Positions 57,036 through 64,000 of a DNA stretch of 64,000 bases are shown one piece after another. The DNA is from Citreicoccus inhibens (GTDB taxonomy: Bacteria; Myxococcota; Myxococcia; Myxococcales; Myxococcaceae): positions 1-64,000 of the forward strand of contig NZ_JAHNZT010000029.1 of the NCBI RefSeq assembly GCF_019039035.1, in the 5' to 3' direction. The notes under the pieces were generated by a model. It did not search any database and had not been told where the DNA came from. It saw only the letters and a list, made by a program, of their open reading frames with translations. Numbering within the stretch: the stretch's first letter is position 1; each line of letters begins with the position of its first letter. The position numbers and the translations under genes were made by a program.

Positions 57036-59114
57036 TCAGGCTCCCGCGGACACCGCGGTGAGTCGGCCAACCGGGCGGATTTGCAGACTCCCCTCCAGTT
57101 CGCCGTAGGTCAACACCGCCACCTCGGGGAAGGCGCCCTCGCACAGCTTGCGCAGGGAGCGTCGGACATCGGGCGCGGTCAGCAACACGGCGCGGCCTCC
57201 GGTGGAGATTCGGCGCACCCCTTCCAGGATTTCCGCCGCACGCTCCGGCGCGAGCGCGGGACCGCGAGGCCCCCCGTTCCGGAGTGACTCCTCGACCTCG
57301 GGGTCCACAAGGTAGGCATACAGGGGGCCGGAAGGCGCGAACTTGTGGCTCAGGTAGCGGTGCAGCGCCTGCCGGCACCGCTCCGCGAGCGCGGCGGCAT
57401 CACCTTCCGTCGTTGGAGAGACGAGCGCTTCGAGGATGGTCCGCAGGTCCCGAATGCTCACCTGCTCCTGAACGAGTCGCCGCAGCACGTCCACCAGCAG
57501 CGGCAGCGGCACCTTCTGCATGGCCTCCTTCACCAGGACCGGAGCCTGAGCCTCCAGCCCCTCCAGCAAGTGCTGCACTTCCTGGAGGCCGAGCAACGCG
57601 GAGGCCCGCGCGCTCAGTACCCCACGCAGATGGTCTGAGATGAGCTCATCGGCGCGTCGCACGGGAACCTGCGCCATCTCCAGCCGAGCGCGCGCCGCCT
57701 CCGACACCCTGCAAATGGTTCGCCCGGTGGCGGGCTCCTGAGCAGGCTCCGCCTTCACCTCGAGGAAGGCCACCTCGCCGGGTTGAGCCAGGGCATACAG
57801 CGCCCCCACCGCGACCTGGCCCGCGCCCGCGGGAACTTCGTCCAGCAACACGCGGTACTCCCCAGGCCCCAGATAGGACGCCTGGGTCCTCACCCGAATG
57901 CCGGGGACACGAACCCCCAGTTCGAAGAACAGTGCATCGCGCACGGCATTGAGCGTCCGGTGCACGAAGGCCCCCCCATCCGCCTCGGCCAAGGGTGTCA
58001 GGTCTGGAGCGAGGTCCAACGTGAGCGGCGCGACTCCCACGGGCGCACCACCGCGCTCGGTCGTCGGTGTCTCTGCCCCCGTCGGAGCTGTCACACCCGG
58101 GGCCTTGCCCGCGGAGGACCGTTCGACCTCGCTCGACTTCGAGCCCTGGCGCTTCCGCAACACATGGCCCAGCGCGCCCAGCGCGCCACCGAGGAACAGG
58201 AACGTCCCATGGGGCATGCCAGGAATGCAGGCCAGCGCACCGCACAGCCCCGCTACGACCCAGAGCGTCTTCGCCTGTCCGAAGAACTGCGAGCCAATCT
58301 CCGCTCCGAGCGAGTCCGATTCATTCTCCGAAGCCACACGCGTGACGACGAGGCCTGCCGCCACCGCGATGCACAACGAGGGAATCTGGGACACAAGCCC
58401 GTCGCCCATCGCGATGAGCGCGAACGTGGAGGCTGCGTCCGCCAAGGACAGTCCTCCCTGGAACATGCCGATGAGCGTGCCCCCCAGGAGATTCACTGCG
58501 ACGATGACCAACCCCGCGATGACGTCGCCCTTCACGAACTTCATGGCGCCATCCATGGCCCCGAACATCTGCGACTCGCGCTCCAGGTCGCGTCGCCTCC
58601 GTCGCGCCGCGGCCTGGTCGATGGCCCCTGCTCGCAGGTCCGCATCGATGGACATCTGCTTTCCTGGCATCGCGTCCAGCGTGAATCGAGCCGAGACCTC
58701 CGCCACACGCTCCGCGCCCTTGGTCACCACCAGCAACTGCACCAGCGTCAAGATGGCGAACACCACCGCGCCCACGACGTAGTCGCCGCGCACCACGAAC
58801 TCACCAAAGGCCTGGATGACGGCCCCCGCATGTCCCTCCGCGAGCGCCAATCGCGTGGACGACACGTTCAAGGACAAGCGGAACAATGTGGTGAAGAGCA
58901 GCAGCGTGGGGAAGGCAGTCACCTTCAAGGCATCGCGCGCGTACAGTGATGCAACGAGCAGCGCCACCGACACCGCGAGGTTGAGCGCGAGCCCCACATC
59001 CAAGAGCCACGCCGGCAATGGAATGATGAGTGCGCCCAAGACCGCGGCCATGGCCAGCGCCAGCAGCGCGTCCGGCGATGTTCTCGCCCACACTCTCTCG
59101 AGGCGATGAATCAT
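57036..59114 (-). CDS. sctV: type III secretion export gate protein SctV (FlhA family)
   Basis: 692 residues from ATG 59114, overlapping the sctU stop; GTG 59123 is an alternative. The N-terminal half has about eight membrane helices with the FHIPEP-type signature (LFRLSLNVSSTRL) and VVTKGAERVAEVSARF. After a Pro/Ser linker the cytoplasmic half forms the nonameric ring domain (about 380-690). It is the substrate-docking gate of the export apparatus. It is the last gene of the operon. Confidence 0.92.
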   Translation of the reverse strand: MIHRLERVWARTSPDALLALAMAAVLGALIIPLPAWLLDVGLALNLAVSVALLVASLYARDALKVTAFPTLLLFTTLFRLSLNVSSTRLALAEGHAGAVIQAFGEFVVRGDYVVGAVVFAILTLVQLLVVTKGAERVAEVSARFTLDAMPGKQMSIDADLRAGAIDQAAARRRRRDLERESQMFGAMDGAMKFVKGDVIAGLVIVAVNLLGGTLIGMFQGGLSLADAASTFALIAMGDGLVSQIPSLCIAVAAGLVVTRVASENESDSLGAEIGSQFFGQAKTLWVVAGLCGALACIPGMPHGTFLFLGGALGALGHVLRKRQGSKSSEVERSSAGKAPGVTAPTGAETPTTERGGAPVGVAPLTLDLAPDLTPLAEADGGAFVHRTLNAVRDALFFELGVRVPGIRVRTQASYLGPGEYRVLLDEVPAGAGQVAVGALYALAQPGEVAFLEVKAEPAQEPATGRTICRVSEAARARLEMAQVPVRRADELISDHLRGVLSARASALLGLQEVQHLLEGLEAQAPVLVKEAMQKVPLPLLVDVLRRLVQEQVSIRDLRTILEALVSPTTEGDAAALAERCRQALHRYLSHKFAPSGPLYAYLVDPEVEESLRNGGPRGPALAPERAAEILEGVRRISTGGRAVLLTAPDVRRSLRKLCEGAFPEVAVLTYGELEGSLQIRPVGRLTAVSAGA

Positions 59115-60160
59115 GGCGTCCACCTCGCCGGATGCGTGTCCGAGTCCTTCACCTCCAGCGCAGTCCGAAGCACCACGGCGGCGGCCTGATACAGCTCCTC
59201 GGGAATGGGTTCCCCCACGTCGAAATGAACCAGGCTCCGGGCCAGCGGAACGTCTCGGATGATGGGGATGCCCAACTCAAGCGCTTCCGCGCGCAAGGCC
59301 AGGGCTTCGGATTCACGGCCCTTCGCGACGAGATATGGGGCGTCACACTCCGCGGCGTCGTAGCGCAATGCGACCGCGATATGCGTGGGATTGATAACCA
59401 TGGCAGTGGCCTTCTGCACTCCACGTGCCGCGCCGCCCTGCGCAAGCTGACGGTGGAGGGCTCTGCGCTGCCCTTTGTTGCGAGGATCTCCCTCACTCTC
59501 CTTGTGCTCCCGGCGCACTTCCTCTCGCGACATCATCAACTCCCGACGATGCCGCCATCGCGCCAGGAAGTAGTCGAGTAAGCCCAATCCCAACAGCATC
59601 CATGCCAGGCGGAGACACAGCCTCGACAGACACTCTCCCAAGAACCTCGCGCTCCCCAATCCGTCACTCCAGATGGTCCGCAGCGCATCGGCCCCGCTCG
59701 AGGCGACTTCACGCCAGACCACGAAGGCGACCAGGGCCGCTGCGCCCAATGCCTTGCCCACTTCCAACACCGTGCGCCCGCTGAACAGCCGCTTGAATCC
59801 CGCGATGGGATGGACTCGCTCCAGCGTGGGGAGCACATGCGCCGGATTCACCTCGAACCCCACCGTCGCCACGGAGACCCCGAGAGCGGCCAGCAGCGCG
59901 CCCCCTAGCGCGGGGCCGCTCAGGCTCACGACGAGCCTCACGGCTTCCATCCCGACATCCGTTGCCCGCTGCTCCAACAGGAGCCGAGCGGTCCAAGACA
60001 TCAACTCCGCGCCCCCATCGCGAGCCTGAGACAGAAAACCCAGGAGCCCACCCAGTGTCACCGCAGTGGCGGACAACATCCGACTGCGGGGGACCTGCCC
60101 CTTGCGGCGTGCTTCTCGCAGTCGTCGGGGTGTCGGCTGCTCCGTCTTCTCCCCGCTCAC
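59111..60160 (-). CDS. sctU: type III secretion export switch protein SctU (FlhB family)
   Basis: 349 residues from GTG 60160, overlapping the sctT stop. N-terminal EKTEQPTPRRLREARRKGQV, four membrane helices, then the cytoplasmic domain with the self-cleaving NPTH motif at about residues 257-260 (MVINPTHIAVALRY). Cleavage before Pro switches substrate class in known systems. The cytoplasmic domain ends soon after DVPLARSL. Confidence 0.93.
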   Translation of the reverse strand: MSGEKTEQPTPRRLREARRKGQVPRSRMLSATAVTLGGLLGFLSQARDGGAELMSWTARLLLEQRATDVGMEAVRLVVSLSGPALGGALLAALGVSVATVGFEVNPAHVLPTLERVHPIAGFKRLFSGRTVLEVGKALGAAALVAFVVWREVASSGADALRTIWSDGLGSARFLGECLSRLCLRLAWMLLGLGLLDYFLARWRHRRELMMSREEVRREHKESEGDPRNKGQRRALHRQLAQGGAARGVQKATAMVINPTHIAVALRYDAAECDAPYLVAKGRESEALALRAEALELGIPIIRDVPLARSLVHFDVGEPIPEELYQAAAVVLRTALEVKDSDTHPARWTP

Positions 60161-60951
60161 TGAGCCTTCTCCCCTAGCCAGGCCAGTGCCGCTCCACTCG
60201 CCATGACGCCCGAAAGCAACCGCTCGCACATGACGCCCACACCAAGCCAGAGAACCGCTCCCCCGCCCAGGATTCGAAGCGGAGCCCCCAGCTCCTTCAA
60301 GTCCACCTGAGCCGCGACGCGCGAGGCCATCCCGAGAAAACAGTCCACCGCCAACACCGCAGCGGCAACCGGTGCACCTACCGCCAGCCCCGTCGTCATG
60401 GCCGCCCCGACCCAGGTCGCAACCCGCACGGCGACCACCTCCGTCGGCACGAAGGCGCCCAACCGCACGACGCCAAAGCCTCGGATCAATCCGGAGAGCA
60501 CGAGCGGGAAGGCACTCCCAGACACCACGAGCGCAAGCAGCAGGTTGTAGAGCCCCTCTCCCGAGGCTGCCTCGCGACTTCCCGCCACAGGCAGGCTCGC
60601 TTCCGCGGATGTTCCCCGGACGAGATCGACCATGCGCCCCGCCATCCGAGCAGAGTCGAACGGCAATGCGGCCACCAACCCCATCACCGAGCCCATGACG
60701 AACTCCCGCACCACGAGCGCGCCCAACTCGAAGGGTGTCTCAACGACCTGCGGCAAGCGCACCCCTGCTTCGACATGCAGGAACAACGAGAGCGCCAGCA
60801 CCAGGGCCAGCTTCACGGACGTGGGGGCGGCCTGACCTCCGAGCAGTGGACATAGAAAGGAGATGGGAATGAGCCGTGACGCACACAGCGCCACCGCGAC
60901 GAGGTGTGGCGCCAGCTCCGTCAGAGATTCGTCCCACATCGAGGGGCTCAC
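60157..60951 (-). CDS. sctT: type III secretion export protein SctT (FliR family)
   Basis: 264 residues from GTG 60951, overlapping the sctS stop. Six or so membrane helices; SRLIPISFLCPLLGG and LVVREFVMGSVMGLV fit FliR/SctT. It forms the export gate with SctR and SctS. Confidence 0.88.
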   Translation of the reverse strand: MSPSMWDESLTELAPHLVAVALCASRLIPISFLCPLLGGQAAPTSVKLALVLALSLFLHVEAGVRLPQVVETPFELGALVVREFVMGSVMGLVAALPFDSARMAGRMVDLVRGTSAEASLPVAGSREAASGEGLYNLLLALVVSGSAFPLVLSGLIRGFGVVRLGAFVPTEVVAVRVATWVGAAMTTGLAVGAPVAAAVLAVDCFLGMASRVAAQVDLKELGAPLRILGGGAVLWLGVGVMCERLLSGVMASGAALAWLGEKAQ

Positions 60952-61217
60952 AGCGACACCTCCGCGATGAGCATCAGGAGCTGCTGGGTGAAGCGAACGA
61001 GCTGCGCCGCGATCCACGGACCCGCGAGGACCAGCGCCACCACGGCCGCGCCCAGTTTGGGAACCACCGAGAGCGTGCTCTCCTGGATCTGCGTCGTGGC
61101 CTGAAAAAGGCTCGCCGCGAATCCCACCACCAAGCTCGCGCCAATCGGAGGCAACGAGGCCAGCACCATCAACAGCAATGCCTCGCGTCCCAGGGTGAGG
61201 AGCATGTCTTGGGTCAT
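60948..61217 (-). CDS. sctS: type III secretion export protein SctS (FliQ family)
   Basis: 89 residues from ATG 61217, one base after sctR; an in-frame ATG 27 bases upstream would overlap sctR. Two membrane helices with the typical ASLPPIGASLVVGF and FQATTQIQE. Length matches FliQ (about 89). Confidence 0.92.
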   Translation of the reverse strand: MTQDMLLTLGREALLLMVLASLPPIGASLVVGFAASLFQATTQIQESTLSVVPKLGAAVVALVLAGPWIAAQLVRFTQQLLMLIAEVSL

Positions 61218-61218
61218 G

Positions 61219-61944
61219 TCACCGATACCCCAAGATGAGTCCACGCGAGAGCAACGCCCAGCCGTCCACCGCGACGAAAAGCAGAATCTTGAAGGGCAGA
61301 CTCACCTGACTGGGGGACAGGGTCTGCATCCCCAAGGCGAGGAGCACATTGGCAATGACCATGTCCAAGACAAGGAAGGGGAGGAAGACAATGAAGCCAA
61401 TCTCAAAGGCTTCCTTCAGCTCCGTGATGACGAAGGCTGGAATGATGACGAACGCGTCTTCTTCCTTCACGTGAGAGGCCTCCTCGGGAGGCCGCAGCTC
61501 GCGCGCGAGGTCCGCGAAGCGGGCACGCTCCTCCGCGCTGCCATGCTTCAGCAGAAAGGCCCTCAGGGGCTCGGTGACCCGAGCCGCCGTGTCCAAGACC
61601 TCAGTGCCAGAGTCCACGTCGCGATAAGCGGCCCGCCCCACGTCGTACATGCGCTCCGCAACGGGCGCCATGATGTGCCCTGTCAGGACCGCGGCCAGCC
61701 CTGTCAGGACCAAGGTAGGCGGTGCCTGCTGCGTTCCCATCGCCGAGCGCGCCAGGGACAACACCACCGCGATCTTCGAGAAGCTCGTCAGCATCAAGAC
61801 CGCGAAGGGCAGCAACGACATGAGCGCGAGCAACCCCATCATCGCCACGGGGTTTCCCGCGTAGGACATCTGCGACAGTGACGCGCCTGCCCCGAATGAG
61901 GCCGTGGGCAACAGCAGCGCCAGTCCGGTCAGCAACCGCCCCAT
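61219..61944 (-). CDS. sctR: type III secretion export protein SctR (FliP family)
   Basis: 241 residues from ATG 61944, overlapping the FliO-like stop by one base. An N-terminal signal-like helix (LTGLALLLPTASFGAG), then FAVLMLTSFSKIAVVLSLARSAMGTQQAPP and, near the C-terminus, LKEAFEIGFIVFLPFLVLDMV, both hallmarks of FliP/SctR. It forms the pentameric core of the export gate. Confidence 0.95.
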   Translation of the reverse strand: MGRLLTGLALLLPTASFGAGASLSQMSYAGNPVAMMGLLALMSLLPFAVLMLTSFSKIAVVLSLARSAMGTQQAPPTLVLTGLAAVLTGHIMAPVAERMYDVGRAAYRDVDSGTEVLDTAARVTEPLRAFLLKHGSAEERARFADLARELRPPEEASHVKEEDAFVIIPAFVITELKEAFEIGFIVFLPFLVLDMVIANVLLALGMQTLSPSQVSLPFKILLFVAVDGWALLSRGLILGYR

Positions 61945-62372
61945 CACGCCACCACCTTGGGGAAACCACGGCGGTATCGCGAGCGCCACAGGAGGGGCAG
62001 CGACCGCGTGAAGGGGCGCGGCTTCTTCGTCTCGCGAATCTCCGCGAAGGACTCCCCGTGCACCACCAGATAGCCACGCCCATCCACCTCCACCAAGGCC
62101 AGACCACAGCGCTGAGACAACCCTGCCCTCGACACCACCGTCATGCGTGATGGGGGCACCACGCCAGGCCCCACCATCGCGCGCCGCCGCCACCACCACC
62201 AACCCAGCGCCCCCACCAGCGAGCCCCCCAGAAGCCCTCGCGCCAGCGTCACCGCTGACACGCCTCCACCCAAGGGTGCGGCAGCCAGCAGACCCAGCAT
62301 GAGCGCGACCGCCCACATCATCCGCGTCCGAATTGGAAGCGATGCCATCCATTCACGCACGTCCCACCTCAT
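61944..62372 (-). CDS. FliO-like protein in a type III secretion operon
   Basis: 142 residues. Its start overlaps the sctQ stop (ATGA) and its stop overlaps the sctR start. Two hydrophobic segments (about 18-36 and 45-62), then a cytoplasmic domain RMTVVSRAGLSQRCGLALVE followed by GYLVVHGESFAEI, which matches the pattern of FliO (a strand, an L-x-x-r stretch, VEVdGr-yLLvG). FliO assists FliP assembly in flagella. Injectisomes usually lack it. The basic C-terminus is unusual. Confidence 0.7.
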   Translation of the reverse strand: MRWDVREWMASLPIRTRMMWAVALMLGLLAAAPLGGGVSAVTLARGLLGGSLVGALGWWWWRRRAMVGPGVVPPSRMTVVSRAGLSQRCGLALVEVDGRGYLVVHGESFAEIRETKKPRPFTRSLPLLWRSRYRRGFPKVVA

Positions 62373-62614
62373 GGCAGCAGCGCGAGGATGCGGGCACCGA
62401 CCTCGCCCTCGATATCAACCAACTCCGCTCGCGCCACCGCGCGCTCCCCCACGCGCAGCAACACCGGGTCACTCGCGTTGATGTGCAGCGGAACCAGGAC
62501 CCCCGGCCGCATCCCCATCAACTCCGTCAGCGGCAACATCACGCGGGCCAGCTCAATCTCCACATCCACGGGGAGCGGGGGCATTCCCTCGCTCGACTCA
62601 CTGACTGCGGCCAT
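62369..62614 (-). CDS. probable internal-start product SctQ-C (free SpoA domain)
   Basis: An in-frame ATG at 62614 within sctQ has an ideal Shine-Dalgarno (AGGAG, 62621-62625) six bases upstream. The product would be 81 residues beginning MAAVSESSEGM and containing the whole SpoA domain. In Yersinia, Salmonella and Shigella such internal SctQ-C products are made and are needed for the C-ring. Confidence 0.6.
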   Translation of the reverse strand: MAAVSESSEGMPPLPVDVEIELARVMLPLTELMGMRPGVLVPLHINASDPVLLRVGERAVARAELVDIEGEVGARILALLP

Positions 62615-63517
62615 GTCCAACTCCTGGGGTGACGCGCCCGAATGAGCGCGGTTCAACGAGAAACCATCCGACTGGAACGAACCGCTCAGGAAGAACCCCG
62701 ACGTGAGGAGGCGTCCGGGACCTCGGAGGTGGCCCGCCTCGCGGTGCACACCTTCGAAGACGATGACGTCACCACTTCGCAGGGTCTCCAGTGCGCCCGG
62801 GGAGAGCCGGCTCCGACCCGCGCGGCATCGCGCGGGCACCGCCAACGACAGCCACTGCGGCAGAGGCTCCCGCCCAGGCCCCTGTGGCAGGGTTTGAAGC
62901 GCGACCTGAAGCGAGTGCGCCGGCAACACGAAGCGCGCACCGCCCACGACGTCTCCCAGCCGGACACGCAGCGCGATGCCTACGTGACGCCGACGCGATT
63001 CCATCCGCGCCACCACGGCCTCTCCGCGCGTCGACACCGCCAGCAGCCGAGGCCCCAGCAAGTCATGGAGCGAGCCCTGCGCTCGCGTCGCCGAAAGAAC
63101 CGCGAGCAAGAGGAACACCAGCGTGGACTCCTCCAGGCGGGTGAGGGAGTCCAACGGCACAGCTCGACGACCCGCTCCCGCCAACCTCCCCAGCGCGGAG
63201 AACACCAGCGCGGGCTCCAGCTCCAACACCGCCACTCCGCCCACCGCGGACAGCTCCAGCACCGCGAAGACATTCCCGGTCCCAAGCCCCGTGGCTGGGA
63301 CGAGCGCCGATTCCAACACCCGTGCCTCCGCGGTGACCTCGACGTCCAGCTCTCGCGTCAGCGCCTCACACGCGACACGCAATGCGGCATCCCCGAATGC
63401 AGCCACATCGGGGCGCTGAGACAGGATTTGATGCGCGCGGGTGAGCTTGCGCATGGCCAGCCAACTCGGACGCGCGTTGCGCTGGGATGCAGAGGAGGCA
63501 CGAAGCGGATTCGTCAT
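62369..63517 (-). CDS. sctQ: type III secretion C-ring protein SctQ (FliM/FliN-like) with SpoA domain
   Basis: 382 residues from ATG 63517; a GTG 15 bases upstream is an alternative. The first 290 residues are FliM-like (LVFLLLAVLSATRAQGSLHD) and the last 80 hold the SpoA domain (LPVDVEIELARVMLPLTELM, GVLVPLHINASDPVLLRVGE). It forms the cytoplasmic sorting platform. An internal start at 62614 probably yields a separate SpoA fragment. Confidence 0.82.
   Translation of the reverse strand: MTNPLRASSASQRNARPSWLAMRKLTRAHQILSQRPDVAAFGDAALRVACEALTRELDVEVTAEARVLESALVPATGLGTGNVFAVLELSAVGGVAVLELEPALVFSALGRLAGAGRRAVPLDSLTRLEESTLVFLLLAVLSATRAQGSLHDLLGPRLLAVSTRGEAVVARMESRRRHVGIALRVRLGDVVGGARFVLPAHSLQVALQTLPQGPGREPLPQWLSLAVPARCRAGRSRLSPGALETLRSGDVIVFEGVHREAGHLRGPGRLLTSGFFLSGSFQSDGFSLNRAHSGASPQELDMAAVSESSEGMPPLPVDVEIELARVMLPLTELMGMRPGVLVPLHINASDPVLLRVGERAVARAELVDIEGEVGARILALLP
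62615..62625 (-). promoter_or_regulatory. internal ribosome binding site within sctQ
   Basis: AGGAG at 62621-62625, six bases before ATG 62614, in the linker between the FliM-like and SpoA parts. Confidence 0.6.
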
Positions 63518-63640
63518 GGACTTGGGCGCCACGGCAATGCACGGGCACGGCCAACACGGTCGCGAGTGGAATCAGGCGGTTTCGAGAGAGAGGCATCCGC
63601 GAGACGGATGCCGAGTACGCGGAGTCGGACGCTCCGCGGG

Positions 63641-64000
63641 TCAGCGCGTCGCCTCGCGAATGAGTCGCGCCGCGAGCGCCTCCATTCCCGGTGCGTCGCC
63701 CGGGGATGACGCCTCGAGCGCCTGACCTGGAAAGAGGCTGCGGTGATACGGCGGCAGGGCCCGGTAGAGCGCCTTCCGTAGACAGCCGCTGGCGGAGGCC
63801 ATCACCGCGCGCAGGCGGTCCGCCGCGTCTTCTCGCTCACCGAACGCCAGGGAGAGCCTCGCTTGACGGCGCGCCGAAGGCAGTTGGGCGACCTCCGTCA
63901 ACAAGCCCCTGGCCCGCTCGGCCTCCGCCGCGACCAATCCGTCCAGTAACTCCCAGGCGCGTTCCCGCCCCAGCACGTGAATCACCAGGACGCAACGCTC
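63641..64000 (-). CDS. unknown gene upstream of sctQ, cut by the window edge
   Basis: The open frame continues to the end of the window, so the start is missing. The visible 119 residues are helical with ERAWELLDGLVAAEAERA, RQARLSLAFGEREDAADRL and CLRKALYRALPPYHRSLF. It has no recognised motif. It is on the same strand as the export operon, 123 bases upstream of sctQ, and may belong to it. Confidence 0.55.
   Translation of the reverse strand, partial: ERCVLVIHVLGRERAWELLDGLVAAEAERARGLLTEVAQLPSARRQARLSLAFGEREDAADRLRAVMASASGCLRKALYRALPPYHRSLFPGQALEASSPGDAPGMEALAARLIREATR

Follow-up and report, generated by a model that had tools for sequence, protein, structure and literature searches.

FliO has long been called a flagellum-specific protein. 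In Salmonella it shields FliP from proteolysis and promotes a stable FliP-FliR complex, and the completed basal body does not contain it (Fabiani et al. 2017, PMC5542435). A recent account (Andrianova et al. 2025, PMC12403147) describes the FliO core as one transmembrane helix and, after it, a small antiparallel beta-sheet in the cytoplasm, reports that FliO is frequently encoded in the non-flagellar type III secretion systems (T3SSs) of Myxococcota, including both of those of Myxococcus xanthus (WP_020477618.1 and WP_216608840.1), and adds that some Pseudomonadota systems encode it too. The myxobacterial systems have been described as needleless by Abby and Rocha 2012 (PMC3459982) and by Herrou et al. 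2025 (PMC12075869); in the main text of the former, where the 'Myxo' NF-T3SS loci are presented, FliO has 0 occurrences.

The window analysed here, a stretch of 64,000 nucleotides from Citreicoccus inhibens, holds a locus that resembles these systems in several respects. Like the 'Myxo' NF-T3SS short and long loci (PMC3459982), it combines SctQRSTUV with SctJ and an SctI-like protein, without flagellar rod genes, and, like the M. xanthus homologues described in PMC12403147, its fliO-like gene represents FliO in a myxobacterial non-flagellar operon, being most likely the orthologue of one of the two. The product also resembles flagellar FliO (Salmonella, E. coli; PF04347) in having a short cytoplasmic beta-domain after a hydrophobic helix, and the gene adjoins a FliP homologue in the same order as flagellar fliO; unlike flagellar FliO, however, it falls under the Pfam cut-off as a lone sequence, carries an extra N-terminal hydrophobic helix and lies in a non-flagellar operon. 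In view of the account of Andrianova et al. 2025 (PMC12403147), FliO in a myxobacterial secretion operon is thus real but already known, and the present analysis makes modest additions to the published parts, namely the way FliO is spread over the export-gate tree and the form with two helices.

The features of the locus are collected in Table 1. The fliO-like ORF lies between sctQ and sctR, opening with an ATG at 62372 that overlaps the sctQ stop (ATGA) and closing with a TGA at 61946-61944 that overlaps an ATG at 61944 (TGATG); because of this second overlap, sctR is best read from that ATG and not from in-frame starts upstream. Its GC content at third codon positions (0.80) is inside the range of the neighbours (0.75-0.84), and that at second positions (0.58) is slightly above theirs (0.43-0.52). 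Judged by eye, the SctR N-terminus is signal-peptide-like, such a start being a trait of flagellar FliP and not typical of SctR.

Table 1. Coordinates of the type III genes of the window, of adjoining genes and of a related gene of the second system. Positions with the prefix L003 or L195 refer to extracted loci.
Feature	Coordinates	Strand	Remarks
sctV (FlhA homologue), last gene of the operon	57036..59123	-	FHIPEP 8e-209; TIGR01399 678.8 vs FlhA 597.4 bits, both under cut-offs
sctU (FlhB homologue)	59111..60229	-	Bac_export_2 1.4e-90; TIGR01404 284.7 vs flhB 242.9 bits, both under cut-offs
sctT (FliR homologue)	60157..61017	-	Bac_export_1 7.3e-32
sctS (FliQ homologue)	60948..61244	-	Bac_export_3 2.7e-25
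sctR (FliP homologue)	61219..61944	-	Pfam FliP 7.9e-65
fliO-like gene	61944..62372	-	142 aa; two hydrophobic helices and four-stranded C-terminal domain
sctQ (C-ring protein, FliM/FliN homologue)	62369..63532	-	FliMN_C 1.8e-17; TIGR02551 SctQ 93.3 bits, just under 100.8 cut-off
114-aa protein between sctJ and sctQ	63641..63985	-	Kept with the operon; tblastn matches in 28/34 related loci, some cut
SctJ, YscJ-type, just past the window	L003:122-913		Pfam YscJ_FliF 1.2e-18
SctI-like inner-rod protein, just past the window	L003:926-1402		PF17001 E 2.8e-4, 21.7 bits, cut-off 32.4
Gly/Ala/Ser-rich protein near the sctI-like gene	L003:1410-2120 (contig C45 about 65.4-66.1 kb)	-	Conserved
Gly/Ala/Ser-rich protein of the second system	L195:2324-2899 (contig C57)	-	Conserved

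Concerning the nature of the operon, its export gate is mostly of the non-flagellar kind. SctR scores 221.3 bits with TIGR01102 yscR, over the cut-off, against 194.8 with TIGR01103 fliP, under the cut-off of that model, and SctU and SctV also favour the Sct models, whereas SctS and SctT lean slightly toward the flagellar ones (83.1 vs 70.2 and 96 vs 84.7 bits, respectively). SctJ prefers the YscJ model (132.6 bits, under the 161.95 cut-off) to FliF (47.1). Among the operon genes scanned no flagellar rod, hook or motor gene was seen, and no secretin gene either, the latter being a possible further likeness to the 'Myxo' NF-T3SS (PMC3459982). The 114-aa protein finds no family in Pfam and NCBIfam scans, and could, as a guess, be of the SctK/SctL type.

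The genome, rated 100% complete, harbors two genes of the FliP/SctR family, and in the whole of it Flg_bb_rod (PF00460) has 0 matches, while 4 of 14 control genomes are positive; by this test the genome is that of a non-flagellated organism. Contig C57 holds the second FliP, whose operon also contains a clear FliO of its own (35.1 bits), FliM-like, FliH-like, FliK-like and YscO-like proteins, a SctQ that passes its cut-off and the single PF18269 match, i.e. the sole T3SS-type ATPase, of the genome. No gene for such an ATPase was seen in the window operon (contig C45), a difference from the 'Myxo' NF-T3SS loci; the window system may borrow the one of contig C57 or run without. The ATPase of M. 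xanthus T3SS* (cluster mxan_2434-2464) is SctN (Herrou et al. 2025, PMC12075869); judging from gene content, the C57 operon would correspond to T3SS*, which would leave the other, less studied system as the counterpart of the window operon.

Individual scores of the window protein are low. FliO is the sole family matched in the Pfam scan (E 0.0038; at 17.7 bits the match misses the cut-off of 22), and the best NCBIfam model is again FliO (TIGR03500, E 0.013, 15.6 bits) against a cut-off of 55.25 that is also missed by the second operon's clear FliO (36.2 bits). At E <= 0.001, PF04347 picks up only the latter in this genome and misses the window gene. The family as a whole behaves more clearly: all 34 members, window included, match PF04347 at E<=0.1 (best 2.6e-7), and no other family is matched by more than three of them. 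An independent FliO model was built from 30 Pfam-positive Myxococcota FliO proteins, taken from non-flagellar and flagellar-clan loci and including zero window-type sequences. Scanned over 14,009 ORFs, it scores the window protein at 21.7 bits (E 6.7e-5), while the top ORF away from any FliO position, in a list judged by eye, reaches 7.5 bits; 33 of the 34 window-type proteins score at least 13 bits and the remaining one 10.1, and on 25 non-flagellar ('nf') loci the top ORF has 7.3 bits.

Profile-profile comparison points the same way. The window-type family matches the other myxobacterial FliO class (33 proteins) with 97.0% probability, the proteins of flagellar-clan Myxococcota loci (10) with 94.8%, and FliO-place proteins of flagellar-labelled loci outside Myxococcota (17, chosen with our own FliO model and not with Pfam) with 96.7%, whereas controls yield 0.03-0.32% (five column-shuffled profiles), 2.4% (SctS) and 0.1% (the needle-like family described below). 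The match spans family columns 41-125 on FliO 30-115, i.e. the second helix and the strands. In the reverse search, the window-type profile has matches in 124 of 195 Myxococcota genomes, and in 90 of the 96 belonging to the organism's own taxonomic family; the window gene is its sole match in this genome, and elsewhere the matches coincide with PF04347 places in several genomes (e.g. G171:C31, G183:C8 and G170:C68).

Regarding the predicted shape, the hydropathy peaks of the protein fall in two overlapping 19-residue stretches, 22-40 and 37-55, and two hydrophobic segments are present in all 34 family members. The AlphaFold2 model, built with the 34-row family alignment (mean pLDDT 78.8, pTM only 0.38), has helices at 14-34 and 40-66 and strands at 78-84, 90-96, 99-105 and 110-114, with block pLDDT of 91-95 for residues 81-110 and 72-88 around the helix. 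It hence contains the arrangement that characterizes the FliO core, a helix (40-66) and then a small, four-stranded beta-sheet. Because it is the second helix and the strands that match the FliO profile, the first helix comes on top of the one-helix core; the core of Andrianova et al. 2025 has one transmembrane helix and the window-type family two hydrophobic helices, so that this conserved N-terminal segment adds modestly to the published FliO picture. The membrane topology would be an N-in, C-in hairpin. Among solved structures no match was obtained, either by Foldseek of the model against the PDB (best E 0.6) or by a PDB profile search with the family (best E 0.25).

The same position was surveyed in related operons. 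A genome-collection scan for close SctR kin gave 78 loci, from which 34 were taken (L006-L039; titles from Myxococcaceae, Archangium and other Myxococcales, SctR identity 64-85%); one of these, L011, is cut ahead of the relevant position, leaving 33 uncut loci. The order sctQ-ORF-sctR is found in all 33, the intervening ORF having 103-165 codons. With the start taken by script as the one nearest the sctQ stop, 23 of the 33 ORFs overlap that stop by 4 bases and nine begin 7-12 bases past it; in L026 no sctQ end was assigned. In tblastn with the window protein, 31 of the 33 loci match at E <= 1.7e-7; L038 (E 5.5) and L039 (no hit), the most distant pair, are recognised by position. This conservation, together with the score in the 14,009-ORF scan, speaks against a chance reading frame.

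The sequence-only reading had placed a FliO-like protein with two hydrophobic segments at the fliO position of a non-flagellar-looking operon and had pointed to FliO profiles and to the equivalent place in other myxobacteria as the means of deciding. On all these counts it holds: the 142-residue ORF at 61944-62372 is a divergent FliO, at the coordinates claimed, whose identity is backed by the Pfam match, the family-wide PF04347 result, the independent model and the profile-profile comparisons. With high confidence, then, we read the gene as the fliO of a non-flagellar, myxobacterial-type type III export system; its product most likely works as Salmonella FliO does.

Two other readings of the gene were weighed and dropped. 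An unrelated small membrane protein at the fliO place, sharing with FliO only hydrophobicity and a short beta-stretch, would agree with the lone-sequence scores under the curated cut-offs and with the lack of a match among solved structures, but the alignment takes in the cytoplasmic beta part besides the helix, the independent FliO model and the reverse search concur, and the column-shuffled controls are negative; after the 14,009-ORF scan, the profile-profile comparison and the reverse search, this explanation is close to refuted and we give it very little credence. Alternatively, the operon could be the remnant of a true flagellar gene set, in which case its FliO would be unremarkable, and the second FliO-bearing operon, with its FliM-like, FliH-like and FliK-like genes, could be seen in that light. 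That operon, however, also has a YscO-like protein and a SctQ above cut-off, the genome-wide Flg_bb_rod search is empty, SctR, SctU and SctV favour non-flagellar models, and beside the window operon lie an SctI-like inner rod gene and a SctJ that prefers the YscJ model. The presence of only two FliP-family genes, the empty rod search and the YscJ-type SctJ led us to set this option aside as most improbable; together with the export-gate scores, they substantiate the non-flagellar appearance noted from the letters.

To place the FliO-bearing operon among its relatives, trees were computed from SctR alone and from SctR, SctS, SctT and SctU concatenated. The 'win' and 'myx' rows were chosen by SctR and not by FliO, and the labels 'fl' (flagellar) and 'nf' reflect score and tree place and not a full gene inventory. 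Sampling of 369 and 385 genomes of Alpha- and Gammaproteobacteria gave the 24 'nf' loci, all of them matches that exceed the yscR cut-off; given this choice by cut-off, the Pseudomonadota systems with FliO that Andrianova et al. report may be unsampled or lie under it. From an initial 105 rows, fl_L077, fl_L193, fl_L180, fl_L176, nf_L168 and fl_L175 were dropped for long branches or excessive length, leaving 99. For the concatenation, nf_L163, nf_L166, nf_L170, fl_L056, fl_L171 and fl_L172, where SctT was not found, fl_L069, fl_L073 and fl_L078, with odd composition and a very long stem, and seven near-duplicates were removed as well, leaving 83. Among the dropped rows, FliO was not detected in nf_L163, nf_L166, nf_L168, nf_L170, fl_L056, fl_L171 and fl_L077.

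After trimming, the SctR tree (99 rows, 216 columns) separates 73 non-flagellar from 26 flagellar rows (support 97/87) and groups 50 myxobacterial-type rows (100/97), while without trimming the myxobacterial, injectisome and flagellar groups meet in an open fork. An exception as regards FliO is a Sandaracinaceae SctR (L170), which stands beside the window type in the SctR tree and in whose locus FliO was not detected and SctS, SctT and SctU were not found alongside. In the concatenated, unrooted tree (83 rows, 896 columns), the injectisomes (21 rows) and the flagella (19) are each set apart by one branch (100/99), and the myxobacterial systems, window type included, form one group of 43 rows (100/99.8). 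FliO is detected, counting any same-strand ORF of a locus, in 43/43 myxobacterial, 0/21 injectisome and 18/19 flagellar rows, a pattern that takes two changes on this tree. It should be noted that 8 of the 19 flagellar rows (L174, L177, L178, L179, L181, L182, L184 and L186) had been fetched for their FliO hits; among the 11 that had not, ten have FliO. Two FliP loci on very long branches, L180 and L193, are not clearly flagellar or injectisome; their FliO-place proteins score well with both FliO models, at 34.4/37.4 and 35.5/31.8 bits, respectively.

As two changes suffice, a separate gain of FliO in myxobacteria is unneeded, and under the root of Abby and Rocha 2012 (PMC3459982), where the myxobacterial systems come first, at the base of the non-flagellar T3SSs, the remaining pattern follows from a single loss on the stem of the injectisomes. 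The FliO pattern on the unrooted concatenated tree thus favours retention over later gain, and FliO was probably inherited from a common ancestor with flagella and not acquired afterwards. The main competing history is that, after a loss in the non-flagellar lineage, the myxobacterial ancestor took up fliO again, or a whole fliO-fliP-fliQ-fliR block, from a flagellar operon. Flagellar-clan FliP/FliO loci are present in other Myxococcota (e.g. L177, L178, L181 and L183), SctS and SctT lean slightly to the flagellar models, and AU tests leave a grouping of the window type with flagella standing for SctR alone (p 0.241, not rejected) and, at the borderline, for the four proteins (p 0.061, not firmly rejected). 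On the other hand, the 43 myxobacterial rows stand well apart from both the flagellar and the injectisome rows, and in the FliO tree (76 rows, 84 columns), itself unresolved, joining the window type with the Myxococcota flagellar-clan FliO is not favoured, lowering the log-likelihood by 10.2 (p 0.231, not rejected). We hold re-acquisition to be unlikely, at a level well above the two readings already dropped. The proposal of the sequence-only reading that FliO is a retained trace of the flagellar ancestor, with the SctR phylogeny as its touchstone, stands in part: the two changes and the published root are consistent with it, but the concatenated tree is unrooted, a position of the window type with flagella is still allowed and the FliO tree does not decide.

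The product of the fliO-like gene most likely plays a role like that of FliO in Salmonella. It would be a small assembly factor of the inner membrane, using its membrane helix and its short beta-domain in the cytoplasm to bind newly made SctR and guard it against proteolysis. In this manner it could aid formation of the SctR-SctT core, upon which SctS, SctU and SctV would then assemble, and it need not remain in the completed machine. The chaperone role toward SctR is drawn by analogy with the flagellar protein, whose deletion in Salmonella is bypassed by excess FliP. The overlapping start and stop signals suggest coupled translation of SctQ, FliO and SctR, which would suit a chaperone produced together with its client.

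A FliO conserved in place can serve, like few other gene-content traces, to test whether non-flagellar T3SSs descend from flagella, and its conservation suggests that the myxobacterial systems assemble the export pore in the flagellar manner. More speculatively, and in our opinion possible yet on balance doubtful, these systems may be a third T3SS clan that keeps the ancestral FliO, lost once on the stem of the injectisomes, and that, in view of the needle-like protein end described next, is perhaps not truly needleless.

A final point concerns the two Gly/Ala/Ser-rich proteins encoded beside the window system and the second system, which find each other by BLASTP at E 4e-13. PDB profile searches with this needle-like family return no needle among the sequence matches. 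Longer stretches of the family resemble HrpF in 8/24 and T3SS_needle_F in 9/24 cases. The last 42 residues are strongly conserved, with 12 of the 42 columns invariant in 12 members, and are like the C-terminus of needle subunits: at E<=1, 10/12 match HrpF (best E 0.0031) and 5/12 T3SS_needle_F (best E 0.0025), values that are not shown to pass the Pfam cut-offs. With such a needle-like end, and in systems described as needleless, the Gly/Ala/Ser-rich protein may be a filament subunit.
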